From Siphonodentalium dalli (taxonomy: Eukaryota > Mollusca > Scaphopoda > Gadilida > Siphonodentaliidae), in contig CP136069.1 of assembly GCA_032622095.1 (NCBI GenBank), positions 168,880,394 through 168,944,393 of the forward strand: a DNA stretch of 64,000 bases. The letters are read 5' to 3'. The position numbers were made by a program, and so were the translations under genes. A model generated the notes under the pieces. That model saw only the letters and a list, made by a program, of their open reading frames with translations, ran no database searches and had not been told where the DNA came from. Position 1 is the first letter of the stretch. Every line of letters begins with the position of its first letter. Shown in pieces: positions 29,701-59,700 of the stretch.

Positions 29701-32700
29701 AATCTTGTCAGAACATCAAAAAGTTCCCATGTTTTGAATTGTTGGAGTATGATCTCTACGTTTATATGCCAATTCATGGCATGATCCAGTAATAATTATA
29801 GAGCTATGCTCGTGTTCATTTGGGTTTGAGATTACCGCACTCGACCAAATGGGGTAATGATACCACTCCAGCCCACGTGATATCCTTCCACCATTCACAC
29901 TTCTGCGATAATCACTAAAACCAAAACAACATGAGCATGGCCCTATGTTTATTGCCAGAAATTCATTGCGTCACTTGCTATATATTAAATTTAATAAAAA
30001 TGAACAGAATGGAGCTATTAAAGTGATGTGAAACACTTCGTTAGGGTGATCAAATAGAGATGGAGAATAATCTTGCTCAAAGTTGTTATTTTTTACGAAT
30101 ATTAATTCAAATTGAAAACACACATCGCCATTCTTATCTATTTATTAAATGCAGTGACTCAAGATGGTGAAATCATTTGCGTTAGTTTATTGATGATAGT
30201 TGCGTCCCGAATCGAGATGTAAATATTTACAATTGAGCATAGTTCAGATGATGTTTTCAGTGGAATGGTATGATCGATTTCTTTGAGATTTTCGGCGATT
30301 TTAGTAGAATACTACATTCCTCCAGTTGACATGCCTGAGTATAACAGTATGTCTTTAATAACAAATTACATAGAGAATAATCACATGTTTGAACTGGTGA
30401 TGTGGACTAATCATGAGAGGCAGTGACGTTGTACAAATACGAGAGTGTGAGTGTTTTACAAAATAGTCCCTGCCTCTCATGAATTATTTCACTTCATCAG
30501 TTCAGTCAAGTGATTGATTTTTCTGTTTATTATATTTCACTATAAACATCTGATTTACCAGAAATCCAAATAATACCACCATTACACCTATGAAGCATAA
30601 ATTGTTATAGCGCTTATGAATACGTAAGGCGCTAGTTAAAGTGACATAAATCACTAATGAAATTCTCATTTATATTTAGAAATCAAGGTAAATCACACAT
30701 AGGAATGTAATAAATATAAAGTAATCTATTGGTTCCGAGAATTATGTGAAATAATTCACGAGATGCGAGTTACGTCGGTAAGAAATGGCGCGAGTGAGTT
30801 TCTTACCTAAACATCTCTCGTATTGATTGAATTATTTAACGTAATTCTCTGAACTAATTGAACACTCTGTTTATTACACTTCTGCATCAATTTGGTTCCC
30901 CAAATATGATTAAAACAGCCGGAATTAATGCATAAAATTTTTGATGTGGTGAAAGATCAACCATAAAAAATTCAATCCAGATCAGTAAGCAACGTAACGT
31001 CAATGACATCACAAGAAATGATATAATTCACTGGTGACATTACCATTTTTAACTACTAGTGTTTTCAATGGAAATCGCACATAGGAGTGTAATAAAAAGT
31101 AGAATCCACTTTAGGGGACTTGCTATCCTTTCCTGAGCATTCTTAATGATTACTGAATGGATCAAGCAGCTAATCCATTCAGATATAAATTTCTTATTCA
31201 AAAGTCCATGTCTGTATTTATTATGCCCCCGATCTCCGATGGAGATTTGGGGGTATATAGTGGAGCCCTCCGTCCGTCCGTCCTTCCGTCCGTCCTTCCG
31301 TCCGTCCTTCCGTCTGTACGTCCTTTCTTCCGTCCGTCCTTATGAACGTTTCAACTCATAACTTTGGTTTCGCTAACTCAATTCAGTTGATCTTTGGTAT
31401 GCTAATAGAACAGCCGGGGGGACAAGATTTCCTCATAACTGCGGTTTCGTCCGCCCATTTTTTCCAGAGTTACGCCCCTTTTTGGACTTAGAAAATTCAG
31501 TTTTCTGTGGCATACGAACGTTTCAACTCATAACTTTGGTTTCGCTAATTCAATTCAGTTGATCTTTGGTATGCCAATAGACCAGCCGGGGGGACAAGAT
31601 TTCCCCATAGCCGTGGTTTCGTCCGCCCATTGTTTCCAGAGTTACGCCCCTTTTTGGACTTAGAAAATTCAGGTTTTCTGCTACTTTTTTTGGTTTCCAG
31701 ATAATAACTTGATTTTGGATTGTTTATTTGCAAAACCCGTTTTTTTGTGTATTACCAATATCGCAATACAGGTCAAGGTAAAATTTCGGTTCAATCGGAT
31801 AATTTTTCTGAGAGTTATGACCCTTTTTCGACTTAAAGTTTTTTTTTATAGAAAATTCAGTTTTCCTTCTATTTTTGTGGCACCAGACCAAATTTGAAGC
31901 TAATATAGAACAACATGTGGTGCCATTTAATAAGTATTTGCACAAAAATAAGAAAATTCCTCTCTGATTGTACAGTCGGGGGCGTTACCTCCGCCCATCG
32001 GTGCACTTGTTGTATATACAATGTTCACCTTTCACTCTTGATATCACAAATATAACGTATTTACAGGAAGTTGACCTGATTCGGGAGCAGGTTCAAAGGC
32101 TTGTCTCTCTGCCGATATGGGGAAACTTGCTGCCAGTAAGTATTTCAGAGGGTTAACCTCTTCATTGTTGAATGACCTGAATGACGTTGCATGTTGGATT
32201 GTTTTCATTATGGTCATTTTGCAGTCGAGCAAAAGGAAAATGTCATGAAAATCCTGAAACTGTCTCAATGCATATATTATAATCTCATATATATTTTGAA
32301 GACCTCTGTTTGTCTGTCTGTCTGTCTGTATGTCTGTCTGTCTGTATGTCATTTATACAAATCTACGATTCTCGACCGATCGGGACGAAACTTGGTACGT
32401 GTGTGTAGTTTGACCAGGCGGTGGACGCTGTCGTATTGGCGAGCCTGTGCGGCGCCCGCTTCGCGCATGCCCAGACGAGATCTCGGAAACGGGTGGAGCT
32501 ATCAACTTGAAATTTGGTATGTGAATGTATCTTGCCCCGGATACGAATTTTATCGGGTCGCCGAGCCCGTGGGACGCCAGCTTCGCGCATGCGCAGACCA
32601 GATCTCGGAAACGGGTAGAGCTATCGACTTGAAATTTGGTTTTTGAATAGCCCGGACAACGTCGGGCTGGGTAGAGCTATCGACTTGAAATTTGGGTTTT

Positions 32701-35700
32701 TAATAGCCCGGACAACGTCAGGCTCATCGGCTAGTATAATATAATATAATAATAATATATTCATACCAAATCATCAAGCATGTAATCATTCCAAATCCTC
32801 AAGCATTTATACAATGTTCCAAAATAAAGCCTGAGTTTAGTGCGCCTGTCATTTGCAGAATGAGGTCCCCAGTGGGTGAATTTAGTGATTACATCCTGCA
32901 CAGCAGGCTAGCATCACCAAATTTACCCTCAGGGGACCTCATTCTGCATGGCCTCATCTGCTATAGGAGACAAATATTCCTATTGAAGTTCCAAAATGTT
33001 GAATATTGTGATGTACACCTATTGGGAACCTCGATTATGCAATGTGCTGTCTGCCAATTTGGGGATATAGAGTGATATCTATGGGAAGAAGTTTCTATAG
33101 AAAAGAAACTTTCCAGAGAAGATGAGGCTTAAGCAGAATGAAGTAACCAGAGGGTAAATTTAATGATGCTAGGCCGCTATGCAGGATAGCGTCACTAATT
33201 CACCCTCTGGGGACCTCATTCTGCAAATGACAGACACACTAAACTCAGGCTTGTTCAAAATAAAAAAATGTTTAAACATGAAAATTAACATTGACTCATG
33301 ATGAGTGCAGTTTTGTTGAGTGTCAATATTTAAATGGATTCTCTCATTCAGTTATAAAAGTATACTTTGGAATTGTCAGTTATTCATTTGGAGGTATTTT
33401 CAGGTAATAAAATCAGATGACAGACAGACAAAAAGCTAATACAGGTGCAGATGGATTCATTATCTTTGGTGTGAAATGTGACAAATGTCCGAACAAACAT
33501 TGCTGAACTTATTATCTCAATATTTCTTACGGGATAACTATTCATTAATCAGGGACCAGCCTAGGGGGCGACGTGGGCGAAATAGTCGCCCTGTGTGGCC
33601 GCAAGTCTCCCTGAAATGACATCAGGGAGAAGTGGATGTCTCCCTAAAAAAAAAAAAATTTAATCTCCCTGAAGAATTGGTGACTGGATGATCTACTGCT
33701 CAGCTTAACACTTCCAGTTTATCCTCACCCATGTAGAAAATCTATTGTGGACAATTATAACAGCTAAAACAATCAGTTCTAATGAATAGTTACTAGCGAC
33801 AAATAGTCGCACTAACGCTCCACTTCTCCCTGGTAAGCCCTCACTTCTCCTTATTTTTCCAAGAGGGAGAAGTCACTTCTCCCTATATTTTGACCCTAGG
33901 CTGGTCCCTGTCATTAATGAACATTTAGTATTGAAAGGGTTGATAACCATCTGATGTGTATTGTAGTAAAATTATAATATGCAAAGCACATATAATGACC
34001 CCACCATTGGGTTTGAAGGAAAATTATCTTAGGAACAATTGGGTAAATACTCATAAGCTTGTAAGACTTGTTTACATCTTATCCAAATAATCCTGTTATG
34101 TTGAATCGCCCAGAACCCTGGTCTTTGTACAAATTTTATTATTTTTTTATGGATAATTTTTCATGTTAACAGGGCAGAAGAGATCAACTGTTCAAAGCTA
34201 ATCCAAAATACAAGAAATTCTTCAACTTAATCAAGAAAAATGACAGTAAACTTGACGAAAAACAGAGAGAAAAAGTCATGTTTGAAAGAGAATTTCTCAC
34301 AAAGTTGATTGAGAAATACTTTGAAACATTAAGTTCCGTTAAAGAGAAAGGTTGGTAGTCATTGAATTAAACCAATTTGGCCATAGATTTCTGATCTTGC
34401 CTTTAAACTCCTCTGTAATCTTGTGTTTTTTCATCAAATCGAACCCCAAATTGAATCAGGGGCAAGATTTTACATTGAATCAAATCACCATAATTGAAAG
34501 TTCAGAGACATCATTTGAATCAACAATTTGTTTTATATACTCAGGGGATTATAGGAAATATCATGAGTAAATATTTGACTAGAAAATTTCAGTGACAAGG
34601 AAGTGCTTGGGAAAACAGAATTTTAATTTATTTGGCCTGAATTTATATTTGTATATAATCTGTATGAATGAGTTATGAATAAAACATAATCATAGTCATA
34701 TTTTAAAACATATTAAAGCATTGTGCAATATTAAATTTTGGACCCTGTCTAACAATCATTATTTTACTTATTACAGAAAAACCTGCCAAAAATGTTATAT
34801 TCTTTTGTGAGCGTTTCCTCGAACTGATGATAGATATTGAGGCTCAGCTACCAACACGACGGTTCTTCAACGCTGTAATGGATGATGCTCATGTTGTGGT
34901 GAAGAGTGAGTTGTCCAGTCTTAGTAAGAAAGATGAGGGGAAATTATTCAGTCAGGTGAGAAAAACAAAACTACATGCCAAAGGAAAATTCAACAAATGG
35001 CCATTCAAGGTATGGAAAGTTCTTGAATTGCCATGCATGCCTTAACCCTTTCATGACGGGAACTGCGCTGGTGCAGCATTAAAGATCCTGTACCAGTGCA
35101 TTCTCTTATATATGCTAGTCTCCAATAGGGAGACTCGCATATATAAGAGAATGCATTGGCACAGGGTTTTCGCTAAATTGCAAGGGGACTTTTGAATAGC
35201 CATGAAACACTAAACGTATATAACATAGCTGTTTATTGATGGATTCTGACTATTTTTTGTATGTGAGTTTATTGTCACATGCGACAGCTGCACAGAGAAA
35301 AAAACATGATGAGCATAATTGATGCGCAACCCTTGTTAGTACTGACCTGTGGGAACCTTGACTGTGCATAGTTTGTTATGTAATAGATAAAACACGAGGC
35401 TGAATTGGATCGTTGGGAGAGACCACGCCGTTGAGGCCCGTAGGGCCGAAACGGCGTGGTCTCTCACAACGAGCCAATTTAGCCGAGTGTTTTATCTTAC
35501 TTAAATCATTTACACCTTTAAGATCAACAAGCCACATACTAGAATCGACACGGTATATACGTCTTCAAATAGCCAATACATTGTGTTATTTATCGATGCC
35601 ACAACAGGGTGTGAGTTGATTGAGTTTACACTCAGTAACGGCCGTGGTCAATGCTCAATTCACGACATGCGCTTTGTGATTAGTGAACTGCTATACCAGA

Positions 35701-38700
35701 AGCACGTGAACACTATATGAGTGATTTGAGTCACATGCACAAGCTGATTTTATTGCCACTAAATTGATTTCAGTTTGCCGAATGGTTTTATATTGCATGT
35801 AGTCAAAATGTCTGACGATGATGATAGTATCTTTATAACGCAAAACACATTTTCTGTCGAACAAAAGGACGATAGCGATGACGATATATTTAGCCAGATA
35901 CTAGATATGGAGGTGAGCTGTCGACCAACATTCTCAATTGGCACAGCGCTAATGTGGAGGCCCAGAAATTCAAACTGTTTCTTCAAAAAGGGGATATGAA
36001 ACTCGACCAACAATTCTAATGGATTTATATACATTTCTGCATGTGTTTCATGTTTAAAAGTACCATATAAATTTGATGTTCTGCATAACCCTTTCTTGTT
36101 TTACATTTGTATATTTAAAACACCCCGCCCATAGCAGATCCAAACAAACATTATTTCAGGAACCACAGCGACCTACATGATACTTGAATTCACCAAAGCG
36201 TCTGATTTTGAGTCTGAACAATTGGATACTTGTAATATCCAACTGTTGGATATCCAGGATATCCAATTGTCACACCCAAAGATCCAACGCTTGGGTCAAT
36301 TAAACATTGCGACAGCGTGCACATTGTGTATATTTGTCAGGATAAACACCTGTTAAAGACAATGGATGACGTCACGTAAATGGTTTAAAAATCATTATAT
36401 ACTCCATATATTAGGCTTTTGAGAAAGCTTTCAATGTCTACACTGGATGAATGGTTTCGCAAATTTAATTACATTATTACATTATTTAAATGATGAATGA
36501 ATAAACTTCCCGCCATGGTACTAACACTGAGTGAATAGTTCTTCATATTTCATTCTGTGGTCCACCTGTGGCCCCAGGTGAACATGAGGCATATGTTTAT
36601 AGTCTTCATACATAAAGATTTGGGACATGCTCCATTTCTGGGGATATACTCCATGTCACAACATGGAGTAAAGAATAGGACCACAGTAGTCCTGTCTGAA
36701 TAGAAGTCTTCTAAAAGTAGAGGAGTAATAAATGAACACTGTAGCCTGAATTTAGGTCTCCTTTTGTGTCACAATAGGACCATATATAGCTGTTGAAAGT
36801 GACGTTAGTCCCCAATTAATTAATTAACAAACTAACTTCATTTTATGTTTCTAAATTTTTATATTTGCCAAGGTGGACAGGGTCGAATATTTCACCAACT
36901 GCTCTTTTTGATTGTATTTGTTCTATTAAAGGTACAGATGGCCTTCACATTGGGTATTGGTGTAAAAAAAAGTCACATCTGTTAAAACAGCCATAAACAG
37001 AAAGAATATTAAAATATAGACAGATTTTGTTCTTATACCAATCATAAATATCACTTAAATAGCATGTTATTGTCAAGATCACATGCCTTGTATTAAACAA
37101 AGGCCATATTTTGATACAGTACAGTAAAGAGTGTGCAATACAGATGGCCTTCACATTGGGTATTGCTGTTAAAAATGTCACATCTGTTAAAACAGCCATA
37201 AACAGAAAGAATATTAAAATATAAAATTACCTTGTTCTTATACCAATCATAAATATCACATAAATAGCATGTTATTGTCAAGATCGCATGCCTTGTAGTA
37301 ACAAGTGCAGAAGGATTCCTATCCATTGGTGGGAAATGTTCAGATAATATGTTCAATCAGAACTTACCGCTATACTTAAAGTAATTGACCACCAATAACG
37401 TGGTGTCACCCCGTTAATATGGCGGTACTATACCGCGGTATCCTCCAATACCGCGGTACTGATACCGCTTGTTAACGCGAACAAGTATGTGTGAGTAAAT
37501 ACCTCCCCTCATAGAGTTCCATGAAAATCACTGCGGTATTCAACAAAATTAATGCGGTGCCCGCTAAAAGACCGCGGTATCATTATCGCCCAATACCGTA
37601 ACTCCACCGCCATGACCGTCTCGATACCGCTACCGTTTATTACCGGTATCACCGCGGTCATGACCGGGGTATCACCCCGTTTTTCTGGTCAATTACTTTG
37701 AGAATAGCGGTAGGACAGAAACGGTTATAAAAAAATATTTGATTCTATAAGTCGTCATCTACTTCAGTTGCTTGAGATGTTGCGGCTGTATGGAGATTTT
37801 GAAATTGACGAGAGGACAGGAGAAGCTCTTACAGTACACAACAGGATAGATATCCACTATAACAGAGTGTTAGCTCTACAGGTACGAACACTATCTCTTA
37901 CAGTACACAACAGGATAGATATCCACTATAACAGAGTGTTAGCTCTACAGGTACGAACACTATCTCTTACAGTACACAACAGGATAGATATCCACTATAA
38001 CAGAGTGTTAGCTCTACAGGTACGAACACTATCTCTTACAGTACACAACAGGATAGATATCCACTATAACAGAGTGTTAGCTCTACAGGTACGAACACTA
38101 TCTCTTACAGTACACAACAGGATAGATATCCACTATAACAGAGTGTTAGCTCTACAGGTACGAACACTATCTCTTACAGTACACAACAGGATAGATATCC
38201 ACTATAACAGAGTGTTAGCTCTACAGGTACGAACACTATCTCTTACAGTACACAACAGGATAGATATCCACTATAACAGAGTCTTAGCTCTACAGGTACG
38301 AACACTATCTCTTACAGTACACAACAGGATAGATATCCACTATAACAGAGTGTTAGCTCTACAGGTACGAACACTATCTCTTACAGTACACAACAGGATA
38401 GATATCCACTATAACAGAGTCTTAGCTCTACAGGTACGAACACTATCTCTTACAGTACACAACAGGATAGATATCCACTATAACAGAGTTTTAGCTCTAC
38501 AGGTACGAACACTATCTCTTACAGTACACAACAGGATAGATATCCACTATAACAGAGTGTTAGCTCTACAGGTACGAACACTATCTCTTACAGTACACAA
38601 CAGGATAGATATCCACTATAACAGAGTCTTAGCTCTACAGGTACGAACACTATCTCTTACAGTACACAACAGGATAGATATCCACTATAACAGAGTCTTA

Positions 38701-41700
38701 GCTCTACAGGTACGAACACTATCTCTTACAGTACACAACAGGATAGATATCCACTATAACAGAGTTTTAGCTCTACAGGTACGAACACTATCTCTTACAG
38801 TACACAACAGGATAGATATCCACTATAACAGAGTGTTAGCTCTACAGGTACGAACACTATCTCTTACAGTACACAACAGGATAGATATCCACTATAACAG
38901 AGTCTTAGCTCTACAGGTACGAACACTATCTCTTACAGTACACAACAGGATAGATATCCACTATAACAGAGTTTTAGCTCTACAGGTACGAACACTATCT
39001 CTTACAGTACACAACAGGATAGATATCCACTATAACAGAGTGTTAGCTCTACAGGTACGAACACTATCTCTTACAGTACACAACAGGATAGATATCCACT
39101 ATAACAGAGTGTTAGCTCTACAGGTACGAACACTATCTCTTACAGTACACAACAGGATAGATATCCACTATAACAGAGTGTTAGCTCTACAGGTACGAAC
39201 ACTATCTCTTACAGTACACAACAGGATAGATATCCACTATAACAGAGTGTTAGCTCTACAGGTACGAACACTATCTCTTACAGTACACAACAGGATAGAT
39301 ATCCACTATAACAGAGTGTTAGCTCTACAGGTACGAACACTATCTCTTACAGTACACAACAGGATAGATATCCACTATAACAGAGTGTTAGCTCTACAGG
39401 TACGAACACTATCTCTTACAGTACACAACAGGATAGATATCCACTATAACAGAGTTTTAGCTCTACAGGTACGAACACTATCTCTTACAGTACACAACAG
39501 GATAGATATCCACTATAACAGAGTGTTAGCTCTACAGGTACGAACACTATCTCTTACAGTACACAACAGGATAGATATCCACTATAACAGAGTGTTAGCT
39601 CTACAGGTACGAACACTATCTCTTACAGTACACAACAGGATAGATATCCACTATAACAGAGTTTTAGCTCTACAGGTACGAACACTATCTCTTACAGTAC
39701 ACAACAGGATAGATATCCACTATAACAGAGTGTTAGCTCTACAGGTACGAACACTATCTCTTACAGTACACAACAGGATAGATATCCACTATAACAGAGT
39801 TTTAGCTCTACAGGTACGAACACTATCTCTTACAGTACACAACAGGATAGATATCCACTATAACAGAGTGTTAGCTCTACAGGTACGAACACTATCTCTT
39901 ACAGTACACAACAGGATAGATATCCACTATAACAGAGTTTTAGCTCTACAGGTACGAACACTATCTCTTACAGTACACAACAGGATAGATATCCACTATA
40001 ACAGAGTGTTAGCTCTACAGGTACGAACACTATCTCTTACAGTACACAACAGGATAGATATCCACTATAACAGAGTTTTAGCTCTACAGGTACGAACACT
40101 ATCTCTTACAGTACACAACAGGATAGATATCCACTATAACAGAGTTTTAGCTCTACAGGTACGAACACTATCTCTTACAGTACACAACAGGATAGATATC
40201 CACTATAACAGAGTGTTAGCTCTACAGGTACGAACACTATCTCTTACAGTACACAACAGGATAGATATCCACTATAACCGAGTGTTAGCTCTACAGGTAC
40301 GAACACTATCTCTTACAGTACACAACAGGATAGATATCCACTATAACCGAGTGTTAGCTCTACAGGTACGAACACTATCTCTTACAGTACACAACAGGAT
40401 AGATATCCACTATAACAGAGTTTTAGCTCTACAGGTACGAACACTATCTCTTACAGTACACAACAGGATAGATATCCACTATAACAGAGTTTTAGCTCTA
40501 CAGGTACGAACACTATCTCTTACAGTACACAACAGGATAGATATCCACTATAACCGAGTGTTAGCTCTACAGGTACGAACACTATCTCTTACAGTACACA
40601 ACAGGATAGATATCCACTATAACAGAGTTTTAGCTCTACAGGTACGAACACTATCTCTTACAGTACACAACAGGATAGATATCCACTATAACAGAGTTTT
40701 AGCTCTACAGGTACGAACACTATCTCTTACAGTACACAACAGGATAGATATCCACTATAACAGAGTGTTAGCTCTACAGGTACGAACACTATCTCTTACA
40801 GTACACAACAGGATAGATATCCACTATAACAGAGTGTTAGCTCTACAGGTACGAACACTATCTCTTACAGTACACAACAGGATAGATATCCACTATAACC
40901 GAGTGTTAGCTCTACAGGTACGAACACTATCTCTTACAGTACACAACAGGATAGATATCCACTATAACCGAGTGTTAGCTCTACAGGTACGAACACTATC
41001 TCTTACAGTACACAACAGGATAGATATCCACTATAACCGAGTGTTAGCTCTACAGGTACGAACACTATCTCTTACAGTACACAACAGGATAGATATCCAC
41101 TATAACAGAGTTTTAGCTCTACAGGTACGAACACTATCTCTTACAGTACACAACAGGATAGATATCCACTATAACAGAGTTTTAGCTCTACAGGTACGAA
41201 CACTATCTCTTACAGTACACAACAGGATAGATATCCACTATAACAGAGTGTTAGCTCTACAGGTACGAACACTATCTCTTACAGTACACAACAGGATAGA
41301 TATCCACTATAACAGAGTGTTAGCTCTACAGGTACGAACACTATCTCTTACAGTACACAACAGGATAGATATCCACTATAACAGAGTGTTAGCTCTACAG
41401 GTACGAACACTATCTCTTACAGTACACAACAGGATAGATATCCACTATAACAGAGTGTTAGCTCTACAGGTACGAACACTATCTCTTACAGTACACAACA
41501 GGATAGATATCCACTATAACAGAGTGTTAGCTCTACAGGTACGAACACTATCTCTTACAGTACACAACAGGATAGATATCCACTATAACAGAGTGTTAGC
41601 TCTACAGGTACGAACACTATCTCTTACAGTACACAACAGGATAGATATCCACTATAACAGAGTGTTAGCTCTACAGGTACGAACACTATCTCTTACAGTA

Positions 41701-44700
41701 CACAACAGGATAGATATCCACTATAACAGAGTGTTAGCTCTACAGGTACGAACACTATCTCTTACAGTACACAACAGGATAGATATCCACTATAACAGAG
41801 TGTTAGCTCTACAGGTACGAACACTATCTCTTACAGTACACAACAGGATAGATATCCACTATAACAGAGTGTTAGCTCTACAGGTACGAACACTATCTCT
41901 TACAGTACACAACAGGATAGATATCCACTATAACAGAGTGTTAGCTCTACAGGTACGAACACTATCTCTTACAGTACACAACAGGATAGATATCCACTAT
42001 AACAGAGTTTTAGCTCTACAGGTACGAACACTATCTCTTACAGTACACAACAGGATAGATATCCACTATAACAGAGTTTTAGCTCTACAGGTACGAACAC
42101 TATCTCTTACAGTACACAACAGGATAGATATCCACTATAACAGAGTTTTAGCTCTACAGGTACGAACACTATCTCTTACAGTACACAACAGGATAGATAT
42201 CCACTATAACAGAGTTTTAGCTCTACAGGTACGAACACTATCTCTTACAGTACACAACAGGATAGATATCCACTATAACAGAGTGTTAGCTCTACAGGTA
42301 CGAACACTATCTCTTACAGTACACAACAGGATAGATATCCACTATAACCGAGTGTTAGCTCTACAGGTACGAACACTATCTCTTACAGTACACAACAGGA
42401 TAGATATCCACTATAACCGAGTGTTAGCTCTACAGGTACGAACACTATCTCTTACAGTACACAACAGGATAGATATCCACTATAACAGAGTTTTAGCTCT
42501 ACAGGTACGAACACTATCTCTTACAGTACACAACAGGATAGATATCCACTATAACAGAGTTTTAGCTCTACAGGTACGAACACTATCTCTTACAGTACAC
42601 AACAGGATAGATATCCACTATAACAGAGTTTTAGCTCTACAGGTACGAACACTATCTCTTACAGTACACAACAGGATAGATATCCACTATAACAGAGTTT
42701 TAGCTCTACAGGTACGAACACTATCTCTTACAGTACACAACAGGATAGATATCCACTATAACAGAGTTTTAGCTCTACAGGTACGAACACTATCTCTTAC
42801 AGTACACAACAGGATAGATATCCACTATAACAGAGTTTTAGCTCTACAGGTACGAACACTATCTCTTACAGTACACAACAGGATAGATATCCACTATAAC
42901 AGAGTGTTAGCTCTACAGGTACGAACACTATCTCTTACAGTACACAACAGGATAGATATCCACTATAACAGAGTTTTAGCTCTACAGGTACGAACACTAT
43001 CTCTTACAGTACACAACAGGATAGATATCCACTATAACAGAGTTTTAGCTCTACAGGTACGAACACTATCTCTTACAGTACACAACAGGATAGATATCCA
43101 CTATAACAGAGTTTTAGCTCTACAGGTACGAACACTATCTCTTACAGTACACAACAGGATAGATATCCACTATAACAGAGTTTTAGCTCTACAGGTACGA
43201 ACACTATCTCTTACAGTACACAACAGGATAGATATCCACTATAACAGAGTTTTAGCTCTACAGGTACGAACACTATCTCTTACAGTACACAACAGGATAG
43301 ATATCCACTATAACAGAGTTTTAGCTCTACAGGTACGAACACTATCTCTTACAGTACACAACAGGATAGATATCCACTATAACAGAGTTTTAGCTCTACA
43401 GGTACGAACACTATAGAAAATATTTGTACTATAAATTATTGACACCAGAGATAGGTGAGAACATACAGACCATAACATGCTTTTCAATCGAGACCAATCT
43501 GTTTAAATCTTCCAAACAATGAGCTTATAATTATACACCCCTCAATGCTTGGGGGGGGGGGGGGGTGTATTTAGGAATCAGCTTGTTAATCTGTACATCC
43601 ATCTGTGGACACAACTTTGTCCGAGCTTGTATTCCTACATTTTTCAGTCAATGTTTTTGTCAATTTGGCATAGACATTTAATACCATCGTAACCTCTGCG
43701 ATTGCAAGGTCTTTTTGACTTTTTTTTAGTTGAGTTATCCCCTATTGGACTTTTTTCGGCAGTCAACATTTTAAGACATTTTTCGTATTAAGCCTAATGA
43801 ACCTCAGGGTAAAGCCACCTTTGTGGGGGATACTCAGTGATGTGTACTGTTGTCTTTGTAGTGGTCATTACTGACTTTTAACAAGTGCACCGCTGGGCGG
43901 AGGTAACGCCCCCGACTGTACAATCAGAGGATTTTTGTGCAAATGCTTATTAAATGGCACTTTGTAAAGTTATGTTATTCATGAGTAAACAATCCAAAAT
44001 CAAGTTATCATCTGGAAACCAAAAAAAGTAGCAGAAAACCTGAATTTTCTAAGTCCAAAAAGGTGTGTAACTCTGGAAAAAATGGGTGGACGAAACCACG
44101 GCTATGGGGAAATCTTGTCCCCCCGGCTGGTCTATTGGCATACCAAATATCAACTGAATTGAATTAGCGAAACCAAAGTTATGAGTTGAAACGTTCGTAC
44201 AGACAATTTTCTAAGTCCAAAAAGGGGCGTAAGTTATGAGTTGAAATGTTCGTACGGACGGACGGACGGACGGACGGAGGGCTCCACTATATACCCCCAA
44301 ATCTCCATCGGAGATCGGGGGCATAATAAGTCTTCTAAGGCAAAAAGTCTATATAAATATGAATTTAGCGTGTATTTCTAGTTCCAAGAAACTACCACTA
44401 CCAAGCTACCACACACATTCAAAGTGAGATATCTGTAGGTTAATGCCACACAGTGTTTGAACCCTAATGAACTATATATTATTTACCATTAGAAAGAAGA
44501 ACCTCTTAGAATGTAGATAGTTGGAAATTATACAGCCAATAGATATTTGAAACAGAAAATGATTATTTATGGTTGAGGAGGGCCCCCTTTTACCAGGTCG
44601 GGCACATCCTGAATTCAACTGTTATAGTTATATTCAACTATAATAGGTAAATATGAATATCGTTGTTTTGTCAATTCGATACAAGAGGCATAATTCAACA

Positions 44701-47700
44701 TTATATTTTTTTTTAAATTAAAAACAGTGTCATACTAAATCTGTACCATGTTTGTGTGGAGAAACATCCATGTGAAAAAATAGTCATGATGGCACATGAT
44801 CAGGAAGTCAACTAACATTTAATTAGTCTAACATGTTTTATGAATGAGTGATGAATGATCATGTTAATGTCATTTAGAAAGGCAACCTTGTGTCATTATT
44901 AACTAAAATAAGCCGGCGCAAAAGGTTTCAAAACAAATTTTATCAGGAGACTGAACATTTGCTGTGGTGTTGCTTAGTGCTGGGTCCGTTGGGTTTTTTT
45001 CCTAACCGGTTAACCACGGGCATTAACCTAATCATAACCGGTTAACCGCGACCATCATTACCATAAGTACGAGATTGAATACACTGGTCACTATATCGGC
45101 AAAACAAGTGTTTATTAAGCATCCCGGAAACGTTGATATACATGCGATCACAAACGAAGTCTTAGTCGTACAATGCGGTCCCGTTAGGGCGATCAAATAT
45201 TGGTAAATGTGTATAAATTAATTCAGTTTTGAGCCCAAACAAACTAAAATATAATATATATTAGTAGTGGGCTAGTATATCGATGTTTACCGGAGTTCCG
45301 CACCGCATAAACAACGCTTGCAAAACCTTCAGCGACAAAATATAGTTCCTTCCTCGTGTATATCCCGGGCACGATTAGCCCAAACATGTGTACTACAAGG
45401 TACTGAAGGTAGGTATACTGTTGTTTAGTAATGTTTACTAGTGTTTGGGTATAGGTAGGTATTAATCACATGTGGCCACACGATGTTACTTCTATTATTT
45501 AATAAACATTCAAACAAAATTAAATCGTCGTGATTCATTACACAAGCCCAGCCAGTGTTTACGAAATAAAGTTATCGAACACATCACTAGATATATACTC
45601 TGAGTTCCCACTCCCAGTGGGCCTATGTGTTTTTGGATGTTGATGTTGGATGTTGATCCAGAATAAACGAATCGCGTTCGGCAGGCCTAGCATTCCGCCC
45701 ATTTCTTCTTCTTTTTTCAAGTCATTTTCATTTTGGACTAAATGTCCACAAACGTTCAATTTCCGTTTATGTATGTCTTCTGCCATCGCTTTGAGACGAA
45801 ATAATCATAATGACAAGTGGGGGGACAGTTTCAATAAAACAGACAGACTATTGATGACATAGTAAAAGTCTAGACTTGATTGCTTTGATGTATGCAACCG
45901 GAACGTCATGTAATGCCGCCAAAGGAAATTGGCATTGAATGTGTAGCAAGTTATTCTCAGACTGACACTGAGTGTAGTTGTTGATCAAATGGGCTTGTGT
46001 TGTGGGGTATATGAATACACAATCAACTGTCAAAATAGCTTCCAATCGGCTTCTTATTACTTACTCTCGTTACTTAAACTTCCGTAAATGATTTCAGCAA
46101 CATTTACACGGAGTACTACCATGATAGTATGATCGTTATCAAAAGTACGGTTATCCGGTTGTGGCCTCCTCCAACCGGTTGACACGCCTAACCGAACCGT
46201 AACCGGATATCCGGACAACCGTCCCAGCACTAGTGTTGCTACAAAAACAGGAAACGGTGGATTTAGCACTGTCAAATTCAAATATAATAGTTAAATCTAA
46301 GTGTAATAGTTGAATTCAAGATGTGCCTCACCTGTTTACTAGTTGAATAAAAAATTACTATCATTTACCAGATGCAGTTATCCATGAAATCCTGTATCTT
46401 GGTCAACTATGAATTTTCTGTATCATTGATATATCGTCACATTTATTGCTTTACTCTTTCTATACTCCCATTCACTTTTAAAAGTATACATTGGAACAGT
46501 CTATTATTCATTTGGAGGGGTGTTCAGGTAATCAAATCAGACAACAGACAGAAAAACAGATTATACAAGAGCAGAATGATTGGAAATGTTCAGATAATAA
46601 GTTCAACAAATGACCTATTTTGTTGAACTTATTATCCGAACATTGCCTAAGGGAACTACTCATCAATGAGTATTTAGAGTAGAAAAGGTTAAAATGTTCT
46701 CCTTTGTCTTAGCTAATAAAATCACAAACTTTTGTTTCCAGAAAGTTGTATTTAAACACTATGAAGACCTCCATCCATTTGCTCTATCCAACGTGGCGAG
46801 TGTCAACACGAGGGAAGGATTGCTGAAGTATTTCAAGCCTCTCAGGTAAATCAAAATTCTCTCATTCAGTTATAAAAGTATACATTTGAATGGTCTATTA
46901 TTCATTTGGAGGGAAACATTGGCCTAATATTATTTACCTTGACTGTGTAAGCCAGTGCATTCTCTTATATATGCGAGGCTCCCTGTGGGAGACTCGCATA
47001 TATAAGAGAATGCACTGGCACAGGATCTTTAATGCTGCACCAGCACTGCTCCCATCATGAAAGGGTTAGATAAGATTCATGTTTATGATCATCCTGTTCT
47101 TTGTTTATTTTAGTGACATCGACTTGCAGAAAATTCTTGCATATCTTAATTATCTACCGATGCCCGAGGAGGGAGAAGAATCCAAATACTCCACCAACTT
47201 CCTTCATGAACTCCTGGTGAGTGTAACCTTAACCCTTTCTTAACTCAATGGATTCTTCCAATCAGACACATAAAGGCGATGTACAATTCATACCAAAATT
47301 AATGAGCTTAGTTATAGCTGCATATTAGCACGTGCTCCATATACATTTATAATGATTTCATTAAATGAACAAGTTAGAGAACCTAGATGGATATGGACCT
47401 TGGGATAACTATAAGTACTAGTACATAGAATACATATTTATAAAATTATTGTATACTGGAGACTGGTACAAACTATATTGTTTATTAAATTTATTTGTTG
47501 TCTTTTTTTCAATTATCTCTTTGTTTTTCTTTGTCTAGATAAACAAGCATCAGAGAAAGCCATCACAATTGGACGTCATGAACGAGTTGCCGCTTTATCC
47601 AACAGAGAAAATCATTTGGGATGAGAATATCGTCCCTGTGGAATACTTTTCAGGAGCAGGTAACTTATGCAGCAATCTGTTTTATGCAAAGAAAAATTCA

Positions 47701-53700: not shown

Positions 53701-56700
53701 ACTAATTGATTACTCTATTTATTACACTTCTGCATCAATTTGGTTCACCAAATATGATTAAAACACCCAGAATTAATGCATGGAAGTCTAGTTATGGAGA
53801 AAGATCAACCATCGAAAATTCAGTCAAGATCAGTAAGCGATGTAACATCAATGACGTCATGAGAAATGACATAATTTACTAGTGGCATTACCATTTTTAA
53901 TTAACGGCGTTTTCAATGGAAATCGAACATAGGAGTGTAATAAATGAGATTTACATTCCACAGTGATCATAATAATAATCGCCAACCGGTATGTCAAGAC
54001 CTGACTGTGTTTTATACCCCCTCCTCCCCTCTTCCATCAAGAGATTCTTGATGTTTATAAACTAATAAAATTGTTGTAGCCTTCTTTAAATTTTAACCCT
54101 TGCATGATTGGAGACTCCTGAAATTTGGCGAAAACCCTGTGCCAATGCATTCTCTTATATGTCAGTCTCCCATAGGGAGCCTCGCATATATAAGAGAATA
54201 TATTGGCCTAACAATATTTACTTTGACATTGTAAGCCAGTGCATTCTCTTATATATGCGAGGCTCCCTGTGGGAGACTCACATATATAAGAGAAGGCACT
54301 GGCACAGGATCTTTAATGCTGCATCAATGCGGCTCTCGTCATGAAAGGGTTAAAGGTTCACATAATGTCGATTTGATACCCCAAATTTCACTTATATATC
54401 ATTTCTATATTTCATACCATTGGAAAGATGAAGCTCCAATAATTAGATATAATCAAATGCCAATCTGTTGAAAAATTGTGATATGTTTTATTGTTGAGGT
54501 ACCAAGATTTGTTTTGAGAGACCATCTGCGATTTTACTCTTTGCATGACTAAATACTTTTGCTCACCCTACAGACCACATCCCTCATACGATAGTCACAA
54601 AACTCCATATGGATCATCAGGTTGAGCTTATCATTTTTCCCGAAATTTGTTTTAAAAAATAGCCACCAGCAGCCATCTTGGATTTCAAATTTTAATCCAT
54701 CGGCACACCCTGCAGCCCGCATTAATTGTTCTGAAAATTTAGAGGCATGTTTAGGAACACTTCTAGATGGGGGCTGTCAAATTTGAACGATTTTCGATGA
54801 AAAACATTGCTCATTGCATCACTAAATACCTCAGCATGCCCGAGATCCAATATTTTTTCGTCCAATTGATCCCATTTGAAATTCAAAATAACATTTCAAC
54901 TTTCCACATTCTTTATCACTCTTTTGACTGTAATGTTCGAGAATATTCTCTTTCCAATTTTGAGCTACAGTGTCATTGACACATTCATTTCAGGTCGCTA
55001 AGCCACGGGTTGGAGAGAACCACCCGGCGCAGGTGAGAGCTGATATCACAGTAAATCTCAGCGTGAGGGACCAGATCAAATCTGAATGGGAAGGTTCGTT
55101 TGAACTATATTTATATTTCCCACTGTGGACACTCGTACATATAATTACATCAACATCATTATGTTAAAGTTGGTCTATTATTTCCCAGCAAGTTTTATAT
55201 TGATTCCAGGGTATAAAATAATAGATATGAATTGAAGACACCTGTCTGGAAAAGCTTTTATCAATTAATAACAATTTTATTTCGAATTTTCTTATGACAA
55301 TAGTGGGACAATCTTAGGGGCTATTTTTAGAACAGAAATCTGTGTGAAAACATTCCAAACGTACCAAGAGCATATTAAGAGAGGTCACTCACTCTATCTT
55401 GGTAACACTCAGGGAAAATTGCAGCTCAGCTAAGAGATTAACCATGAATTATGATTGAAATAAACCACTTTACAAGCCTTGAAATAGTGTGTCTGTCATT
55501 TGCAGAATGAGGTCCCCAGAGGGTGAATTTAGTGATGCTACCCCGCATAGCGGGCTAGCATCACCAAATTCACCCTCTGGTGACCTCATTCTGCTTACAA
55601 CTCAGCAGAATGAGGTTCCCAGAGGGTGAATTTGGTGATGCTAACCTGCTATGCGGGGTAGCATCACTAAATTCTCCCTCTGGGGACCTCATTCTGCAAA
55701 TGACAGACACACTATTTCAAGGCTTGCCACTTTATTATGCATTTATAGACAAATAATAAACCCTTCTTAATTTGATTCTTTATTTATTCACAAAACAGCT
55801 ATTTGTAGTCTTGAAATCGTGAATTTTTTTAATTATGTTGTTGTAATGATGACCCAGAAGAGAATTTTCCCATTTCCCGCAGCCCATACGTTATAAGTGA
55901 CGTAGATGATTTGCGACTCCCTGAGTTGGCTTGCACAAAATTATTTGTTTGTGGCCTCAGGGTTAATATACTTTTTAGCTCAACTTACTTTTGTAAGTTT
56001 GAGCTATTGCCATGGTTTGGCGTCCGTCGTCAGTGTGTCCGTGGGTCTGTCAACAATTTCCTTTGGCGCGGGCTACAGGTTGTACCTTTGGTCTGATCTT
56101 CGTGAAATTTGTCATGAATGTTGACATTGACATGTAGATGGGAACGAGTCATTTTGGGGTCATTCGGCCAAAAAACATGGCCGCTGGCAGCCATCTTGGA
56201 TTTCAAGATTCAATTCATTGGCGCGGCCTACAGGTCGTACTGTTCATATGATCATCATGAAATTTGTCATTGATGTTAATAATGATATGTAGATGGGAAC
56301 GAGTGATTTTGGGGTCGTTCGGCCAAAAAACATGGCCGCCAGCAGCCATCTTGGATTTTACTCTTTGCATGACTAAATCCTTTGGCGCGGGCTACAGGTT
56401 GTACCTTTGGTCTAATCTTTATGAAATTTGTCATGAATGTTGACATTGACTTGTAGATGAGAACGAATCATTGTGGGGTCATTCGGCCAAAAAACATGGC
56501 CGCTGGTGGCCATCTTAGATTTCAAAATTCAATCCATTGGCGCGGGCTACAGGTCGTACTGTTCGTCTGATCATCATGAAATTTGTCATGGATGTTAATA
56601 TTGACATGTAGATGGGAACGAGTCATTTTGGGGTCGTTCGGCCAATAAACATGGCCGCCAGCAGCCATCTTGGATTTTACTCTTTGCATGACTAAATCCT

Positions 56701-59700
56701 TTGGCGCGGGCTACAGGTCGTACCTTTGGTCTGATCTTTATGAAATTTGTCATGAATGTTGACATTGACATATAGATGGGAACGAGTCATTTTGGGGTAA
56801 TTCGGCCAAAAAACATGGCCGCTGGAAGCCATCTTGGATTTCAAGTTTCAATCCATTGGCGCGGGCTACAGGTCGTACTGTTCCGTCTGATCATCATGAA
56901 ATTGTGTTGGTCGGAAGTTTATGAAATTTGTCATGTATGTTAACACTGACATTTGTCATGAATGTTGACATTGACATGTAGATGGGAACGAGTGATTTTG
57001 GAGTCGTTCGGCCAAAAAACATGGCCGCCAGCAGCCATCTTGGATTTTACTCTTTGCATGACTAAATCCTTTGGCGCGGGCTATAGGTTGCCTTTGGTCT
57101 AATCTTTATAAAATTTGTCATGAACGTTGACATTGACATGTAGATGGGAACGAATCATTGTGGGGTCATTCGGCCAAAAAACATGGTCGCTGGCCATCTT
57201 GGATTTCAAAATTCAATCCATTGGCGCGGGCTACAGGTCGTACTGTTCGTCTGATCATCATGAAATTTGTCATGAATGATAACAATGACATGTAGATGGG
57301 ATCGAGTCGTTTTGGGGTCATTCGGTCAAAAAACATGGCGGCCCGCAGCCATCTTGGATTTTACTCTTTGCATGACTAAATCCTTTGGTGCGGGCTACAG
57401 GTCGTGAAATTTGTCATGAATTAAAACAATGACATGTAGATGGGAACGAGTCGTTTTGGGGTCATTCGGTCAAAAAACATGGCCACCAGCATTTTACTCT
57501 TTGCATGACTAAATCCTTTGGCGTGGGCTACAGGTCATACCTTTGGTCTGATCTTTATTAAATTTGTCATGGATGTTAACACTGACATGTAGATGGGAAC
57601 CAGTGATTTTGGAGTCGTTCGGCCAGCAGCCATCTTGGATTTTACTCTTTGCATGACTAAATCCTTTGGCACGGGCTACAGGTTGTACCTTTGGTCGTAC
57701 TGTTCGTCTGATCATCATGAAATTTGTAGGTCATAGCTTTGGTCAGATCTTCATAAAATTTGTCATGGATGTTAACAATTATACGTAGATGGGAACGAGT
57801 CCTTTTGGGGTCAATTGGCCAAAAAAAATGGCCACCAGCAGCCATCTTGTATTTTACTCTTTGCATCACTAAATCCTTTGGCGCAGGTTAGACATTTCAA
57901 TTAGCACCTTTCCTATTCCTCCATTTACTGTCAACCATTAAATTATTCCCCTACCTAAGTTGAGCTACAGTGTCATTGACACTTTCATTTGTTGTTGCTT
58001 GGACTACACAGATTCTCAGTGTGGCATGAAAAATAACTTTCTTCAAAGTACTTATGTTCATAAATTACATATTGAATTTGGCAACACAGAATATAATTTT
58101 TTTAGCTCAACTTTACTTTGTAATGTTTGTAAATTAATTATACAATGATTCTATGTTTGTGCTATAATTGCCGTATATTTTCAGCGATTAATTCAGTCAG
58201 ATGGGCTAAATATTTAGAGTTTTGAACAGGTAAGATGCTGTGTTTTCAGAAATGGCATACCTGATGTTTTTGGATTTTGTATGCTTAGCTAACATAGAAA
58301 GGTTTTTTATAGATATATTTATGAATGCTGTGTACATATATATATTCACTGTATTCTATAGGTTTACGAAAACATGATGTCGCATTCCTACTGACACTGA
58401 AGCCAATAGTTCCAATAAACTATGCATACAAACACAAGGAGCCATTCATCCCTCAGGTCGGACTTACATACGTCAGAGGGTGCGAGATTGAAGGAATGTT
58501 AGATGCCGATGGGAAGGTTATTGAAGAAGGTAATGTCAATAAATATCCTTTTTTTATATGCCTGTTTTTTTGAAGAAAAAAATGTGACATATTATGTTAT
58601 TGGTCTGTTCATCCATCGATGATAACTAAGGTAAGTCTGAACTGGATGGAATGAAATACTAGCTCAAAATACAGGTCAAGTTCGCATTTGGGTTTCGCCC
58701 GTCAATCTTCACCGGAGTTATGGCCCATTTTGTTGAAATTTGCACTTTAATTTTGTTAACGGATGATAACTTTTGTATGTCTGAACTGAATGGCAAGAAA
58801 TTTGGTATGTGTGTTTGCTTGCCCAAAATACAGGTCTAGTTCGAATTTGGGTTCCGCCCATCCAATTTTCACCTGAGTTGTGGCCCATTTTAAGCCCTAT
58901 TTTGCCACGCCCTAGCGATGCTCTTTTTTACTTCGAATTCTGACTTTTAAAACAAAATAAAACCCTACACACTTTTAGTATTTCAATTTGTATTGTAGAT
59001 GTCCTCAAAGATTTGTGAAATAGATTAAATTCGGCTGACTATTTTACTTTTATGCCATTAGCGACAAGTTTGTTGATGTAAATATAGATATTTATACCCC
59101 ATACTTTTCAAAGGAAATGAGAGTATACTGGAATGACTCCCTCCATCTGTCCGGGGCAATGGGGCATATATTTGGTATAGAGTTTCGCCATCAGGACTGT
59201 TTCAACAGAGGCCTTAAAGGCATTCATGTTTTTCATTCTAGAGTTATCATTCTTTGTTTATCTGTAAATAGTGTTTTTCTTTGTCCATCTCAGTTGTCTA
59301 TTTTAAATTTGGTTCCATCCTGTCTATATTTCAATTTGCCACCGTGCGGGTTTGCCAGCACCTTTACTGCAACCTCTTGTTTATCATATAATATTTTTTG
59401 GAGTTATAATTTTATTAGAATAGCGGGAAATCCTTGATATGTGCAAATATTCACAATACATTTTGACTGAACATTTCATCATCACGTCAGTTTCCATTCA
59501 TGTTTCTGTAGGTCCTGAGCCAAAACCCGAGTTGAAGGGTGATACAAGGACATTTAGGGTTTTCCTGGACCCCAACCAATATCAGGAGGATGTAACTAAC
59601 ACCTCAAATGGTGAAGAGGTGAGAAAATATTTTTATATTTATAATTTTACGAATCTGACTGACTCTAAAAATCTGAAGAGTGAACAATTTAAATTTCCAA

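Follow-up and report, generated by a model that had tools for sequence, protein, structure and literature searches.

When the end of a coding exon, together with its splice donor, is repeated in tandem within a core splicing-factor gene, which of the donors is used, and what becomes of the remaining copies? This question is raised by the AQR gene of the scaphopod mollusk Siphonodentalium dalli, which we analyzed in a window (the whole stretch of DNA considered here) of 64,000 nt from assembly GCA_032622095.1 (contig CP136069.1, positions 168,880,394 to 168,944,393 of the forward strand). A sequence-only reading of this window had reported 81 in-frame tandem copies of an AQR exon end with its donor. 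We consider that this array is probably a very large "mirage", as minisatellites lying across exon-intron boundaries are called in lancelets, in which the first donor or the first few would be used and the remainder would be intron.

Structure of the Array and Its Host Gene

Tandem Repeats Finder (TRF) detected a single array with a period of 69 bp, 81.0 copies, 99% match and 0% indels, and a unit-by-unit script gave a length of 5589 bp, which is exactly 81 x 69. The array lies within an open frame at 37714-43413, with a TAG directly after the last unit, and the size and frame of the array were thus confirmed. Each unit comprises the last 56 nt of the AQR exon and the first 13 nt of the following intron. 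The earlier description of the unit as an exon end, a CAG|GTACGA donor and a few intron bases was therefore accurate, although its exonic part had been put at 47+ nt. Tandem units that span an exon-intron boundary are what characterizes a mirage minisatellite. As a rough estimate, the probability that such an array would be both in frame and open by chance is 1/3 x (61/64)^5, or about 0.26, and the open frame is not remarkable in itself. In a TRF survey of 314 kb of the same chromosome (rows with a period of at least 10, which may overlap), the array was the longest of 154 rows, the runner-up measuring 3067 bp with 85% match. When a 375-bp probe was searched against the 2.23-Gb assembly, in a search that scores the best candidates only, all 25 matches fell within the array. 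Short tetranucleotide arrays are also present in the window (TCCG at 31269-31339, TCTG at 32305-32350 and ACGG at 44254-44278), the last of these lying a short way downstream of the 69-bp array.

On both sides of the array, the exons examined match PDB aquarius structures in colinear order, as would be found in a functional gene. Exons 11, 12 and 13 (we retain the numbering of the sequence-only reading), when joined from the first donor at 37882 to 46742, aligned without gaps to residues 300-407 of 5mqf_U and with small gaps to 8ro0_Q, and exons 9-11 aligned to residues 169-320 of 4pj3_A with a single one-residue gap. We take 5mqf and 4pj3 to be human aquarius. Later exons followed in order up to residue 731, then at 778-879, and then at 1126-1220, the last of these in segment L015; two of the later pieces (346-391 and 460-479) had low individual scores. 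The first exons, residues 731-778 and 879-1126, and the C-terminus fall outside this comparison. When segment L014 was scanned against Pfam in its three forward frames, no family was returned for any of them, although L014 is situated between AQR exons. The gene looks intact: no decay was seen in the exons located and nothing suggests a pseudogene. The proposed anatomy, in which 81 donors within AQR face one acceptor at 46742, was right. The unit straddles the exon-intron boundary, the AQR exons located to either side are ordered and open, and splicing from the first donor to 46742 is predicted to yield ordinary AQR.

Splice Signals and Predicted Donor Use

Splice sites were scored on site frequencies, and the scores serve for ranking only. 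The unit boundary, CTACAG|GTACGA, which is kept in all 81 units because positions 39 and 44 are the only variable ones, scored 3.67 as a donor and 4.09 as an acceptor. For comparison, the donors of AQR exons 9, 10, 12 and 13 scored 1.87, 6.89, 4.82 and 6.51. The scores for the acceptors of exons 9-13 were 4.5, 5.56, 1.15, 5.99 and 4.35, such that the acceptor score of the array boundary is higher than that of the real acceptor of exon 11. Every unit boundary has an AGGT with fair scores in both roles, as do the dual-specific sites of the UBC type, and it is plausible that the boundary could act as both donor and acceptor. In addition, the junction of two units makes an acceptor-like CTATCTCTTACAG|T, with a score of 3.15, at each of the 80 unit junctions. 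The units had earlier been regarded as donors only; given that unit boundaries and unit junctions also score as acceptors, splicing inside the array is possible.

We propose that the array would have originated by tandem duplication across the 3′ end of the AQR exon and the start of the intron, and would then have grown by unequal exchange or slippage. Splicing would mainly take place from the first donor or from a few at the start of the array, since these yield exons of usual size (114, 183 and 252 nt for donors 1-3, with the second and third donors adding 23 and 46 residues), and the remaining array would leave as intron. Use of donor 81 would produce an exon of 5634 nt, and the prior calculation of up to 1840 extra residues for this last donor was correct. 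An AQR protein could carry inserts as large as this, but our analysis offers no support for them. Splicing between unit boundaries would remove whole units and restore the same CTACAG|GTACGA site. The frame would survive such unit-to-unit splicing because the unit is 69 nt long and each boundary can in principle be both donor and acceptor, and this may explain how a core gene can tolerate 81 copies.

Alternatively, many donors as well as unit-to-unit splicing at the dual AGGT sites may really be used, so that AQR would exist as a ladder of proteins extended by n x 23 residues, tolerated or even useful. The frame kept across 81 units speaks for this, and the rough chance estimate of about 0.26 given above speaks against it. 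The insertion would fall in a presumably helical part of AQR, which we also counted against a ladder of proteins, and we regard this alternative as unlikely. It is still less likely, in our judgment, that the array is a partly harmful allele, namely an expansion, either recent or confined to one haplotype and maintained by drift, that lowers correct AQR splicing through the frame-shifting junction acceptor, donor confusion or slow transcription. While use of the CTATCTCTTACAG|T acceptor would indeed generate 47-nt, frame-shifting exons, the lack of decay in the exons located argues against such harm.

Two further ideas about the repeat were rejected. Special RNA structure was not supported, as the predicted folds were ordinary when compared with shuffled sequences: a single unit, folded in two registers, had z-scores of -0.32 and -0.29, and a pair of units had a z-score of -1.37. 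For a designed protein repeat, AlphaFold2 run without an alignment on the exon plus following units (244 residues) returned a confident beta-rich repeat, with a predicted local distance difference test (pLDDT) of 89.0 and a predicted template modeling score (pTM) of 0.83. We set this model aside because AlphaFold2 is reported to give such models for perfect repeats of random sequence (PMC11795689).

Unit Types, Variants and Age of the Array

The 81 units fall into four types (consensus, 36; G44T, 32; A39C, 8; G44C, 5), and none carries a private variant. Near-identical units are hard to assemble, and one might suspect that the real array holds a single unit or a handful, or that its unit count is far from 81. 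However, the four types occur in a non-random order, single-unit errors are absent, and the array is embedded, between clean flanks that are single-copy, in a contig of 214.9 Mb. We therefore find an assembly artefact highly improbable, although the exact unit count may be off.

Adjacent units were identical in 45 of 80 pairs, compared with 28.7 expected, and none of 5000 shuffles gave a value as high. This clustering of like units is as unequal exchange would give and fits turnover of the array. Higher-order blocks were not supported, as strings of unit types recurred without overlap over at most 7 units, a length reached in 200 of 300 shuffles. That no unit has a private variant points to a recent origin of the present length, and recent growth of this kind is also what the partly harmful allele described above would call for.

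Read in the AQR frame, none of the three variants alters the encoded amino acid. Synonymous changes make up 53 of the 207 possible ones, which gives a probability of 0.017 for three of three, or 0.008 when transversions only are considered (28 of 138); with the variants taken as two sites, the corresponding values are 0.066 and 0.041. This is a weak hint of coding constraint on the units (p about 0.01-0.07), and it counts in favor of an AQR of variable length. On the other hand, there are just three variant types, and each of the three puts a pyrimidine in place of a purine at a distance of 13 or 18 nt upstream of the AGGT, a post hoc observation read from the unit. Such changes would strengthen the acceptor, which could equally be the target. 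Neither reading of the variants is firm, because they represent three events only. A more elaborate proposal would make the array a translated cassette of 81 interchangeable dual sites that produces an AQR ladder in 23-residue steps, by which a spliceosome component would report on or tune itself through its own stochastic splicing while selection keeps the units synonymous; we think it very doubtful indeed.

Several points weigh against our interpretation of the array as a mirage spliced mainly from its first donors. The array donor is middling beside the neighboring donors, the true acceptor of exon 11 appears weak, and the acceptor made at unit junctions could send splicing out of frame. 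Three synonymous variants of three would be more easily reconciled with translation of many units than with a pure intron. Furthermore, no second boundary array was found in the 314-kb TRF survey, although this is a weak point given that exons are unmapped there and three other repeats were inspected closely.

Comparison With Known Boundary Repeats

The view expressed in the sequence-only reading that exon-plus-donor minisatellites are undescribed was wrong, as shown by the lancelet mirages, the multi-donor minisatellite of IFI6 and the dual-specific repeats of UBC. In lancelets, mirages are known from Adh3, the globins BflGb6 and BflGb9, and troponin C, with a similar case in PGBD5 (PMC3087553, PMC3902484), and they are reported to be without effect on regular splicing (PMC3087553). 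The globin mirages have either 3 or 6 copies of a 150-160-bp unit or a single 157-bp duplicate, whereas the AQR array has 81 near-identical, frame-keeping units; the Adh3 mirage has units of 10-72 bp (PMC3087553), and its instability was reported. Human internal tandem repeats are likewise minisatellites at exon-intron boundaries, where they alter splicing and are able to generate introns, but they average four units of 30 bp and occur in recent gene duplicates (PMC2812944), in contrast to the 81 x 69 bp of the AQR array.

In the human 6-16/IFI6 minisatellite, the repeat units are alternative donors that give rise to three mRNAs; two units further downstream also provide donors, and the predominant form has 130 residues (PMC4526556). 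The AQR array resembles IFI6, where use of the units as donors was reported, in having a splice donor in each unit (CAG|GTACGA in 81 of 81). The IFI6 units are reportedly 12 nt long, compared with 69 nt for the 81 units found here in a different gene.

Dual-specific splice sites within tandem repeats were described in human UBC and VCX3A, and in UBC they yield a ladder of mRNAs (PMC10809524), a precedent that speaks for AQR of variable length. As in these genes (PMC10809524), the AQR array has an AGGT per repeat boundary and a unit that is a multiple of 3, such that the frame would be left intact by the removal of whole units. However, the UBC repeat is functional protein, with 9 units of 228 nt and up to 46 in one fish (PMC10809524), while the AQR array consists of an exon fragment plus intron. 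Moreover, the use of dual sites was shown in UBC, whereas those of the AQR array are predicted by score. By analogy, the lancelet, IFI6 and UBC precedents lend support to the interpretation as a mirage. The kind of element is already known, as mirages, multi-donor minisatellites and dual-specific repeat sites. What is new is the scale of 81 units, their near-perfect identity, the frame-keeping 69-nt unit, and AQR as the host gene; we found no report of an AQR minisatellite among the matches listed in the open-licence literature.

The array is an extreme natural test of 5′ splice site choice, as 81 identical donors are arranged in 69-nt steps before one acceptor. With the local sequence constant across the 81 donors, position must decide which is chosen. 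It is also a boundary minisatellite in a core splicing-factor gene with more units than the cited sources give for lancelet mirages, UBC-type repeats or human internal tandem repeats, and it bears on models in which boundary repeats create introns. Translation of many units would matter far more if it were true, but nothing in our analysis shows such translation. The coordinates of the array and of the surrounding AQR exons are listed in Table 1.

Table 1. Positions in the window of the 69-bp array and neighboring AQR features.
Feature	Position	Strand	Basis
AQR exon 9 (ends approximate)	34173..34350	+	PDB aquarius alignment; donor AAG|GTTGGT at 34351
AQR exon 10, preceding	34777..34955	+	PDB aquarius alignment; donor CAG|GTGAGA at 34956
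AQR exon 11, copied by the array; 114 nt, 38 codons; ends in first unit	37768..37881	+	PDB aquarius alignment
Array of 81 x 69 bp	37826..43414	+	TRF, unit table
First of 81 identical donors, CAG|GTACGA	37882..37883	+	Sequence; score 3.67 on site frequencies, for ranking only
End of open frame: last unit plus two bases gives TAG	43415..43416	+	Open frame 37714-43413, open reading frame end 43416
AQR exon 12, acceptor for array donors	46742..46845	+	Gapless PDB aquarius alignment when joined to exon 11
AQR exon 13	47114..47216	+	PDB aquarius alignment, exons 11+12+13

Other Repeats

Other repeats were noted in the window and elsewhere in the assembly. On the minus strand of L013:396-466, a 30-bp x 2.4 repeat with 100% match has a unit containing CAG|GTAAGA and looks like a mirage, but a coding exon under the repeat was not seen; nor was one seen under the repeat at L015:2655-2742. 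A 27-bp x 15.1 repeat of CAGCAAACAACGACAGCCAGTACCACA at L026:3389-3797 (G000:C9:168793389) would encode a Thr/Gln-rich, mucin-like nine-residue repeat and is possibly coding.

At the start of contig 2 (G000:C2:1-3000, L011), there is a tandem repeat of the TTAGTTAGTCTTMTGTACGCGTAGTA type, and contigs C1, C2 and C9 showed no TTAGGG or TTAGG runs within their first 3 kb. On visual comparison, the 155/319-bp tandem repeat at 56059-56903 of the window has its GACTCGTTCCCATCTACATGTCA stretch in common with an array of 164 bp x 18.9 at G000:C9:168806449, and looks like a dispersed repeat family. Two pairs of arrays share the same unit and have near-equal lengths, namely those at G000:C9:168702918 and 168817200 (40 bp x 23 and 24) and those at 168774970 and 168852049 (46 bp x 15.2 in both), as if they were carried inside a mobile or duplicated element.
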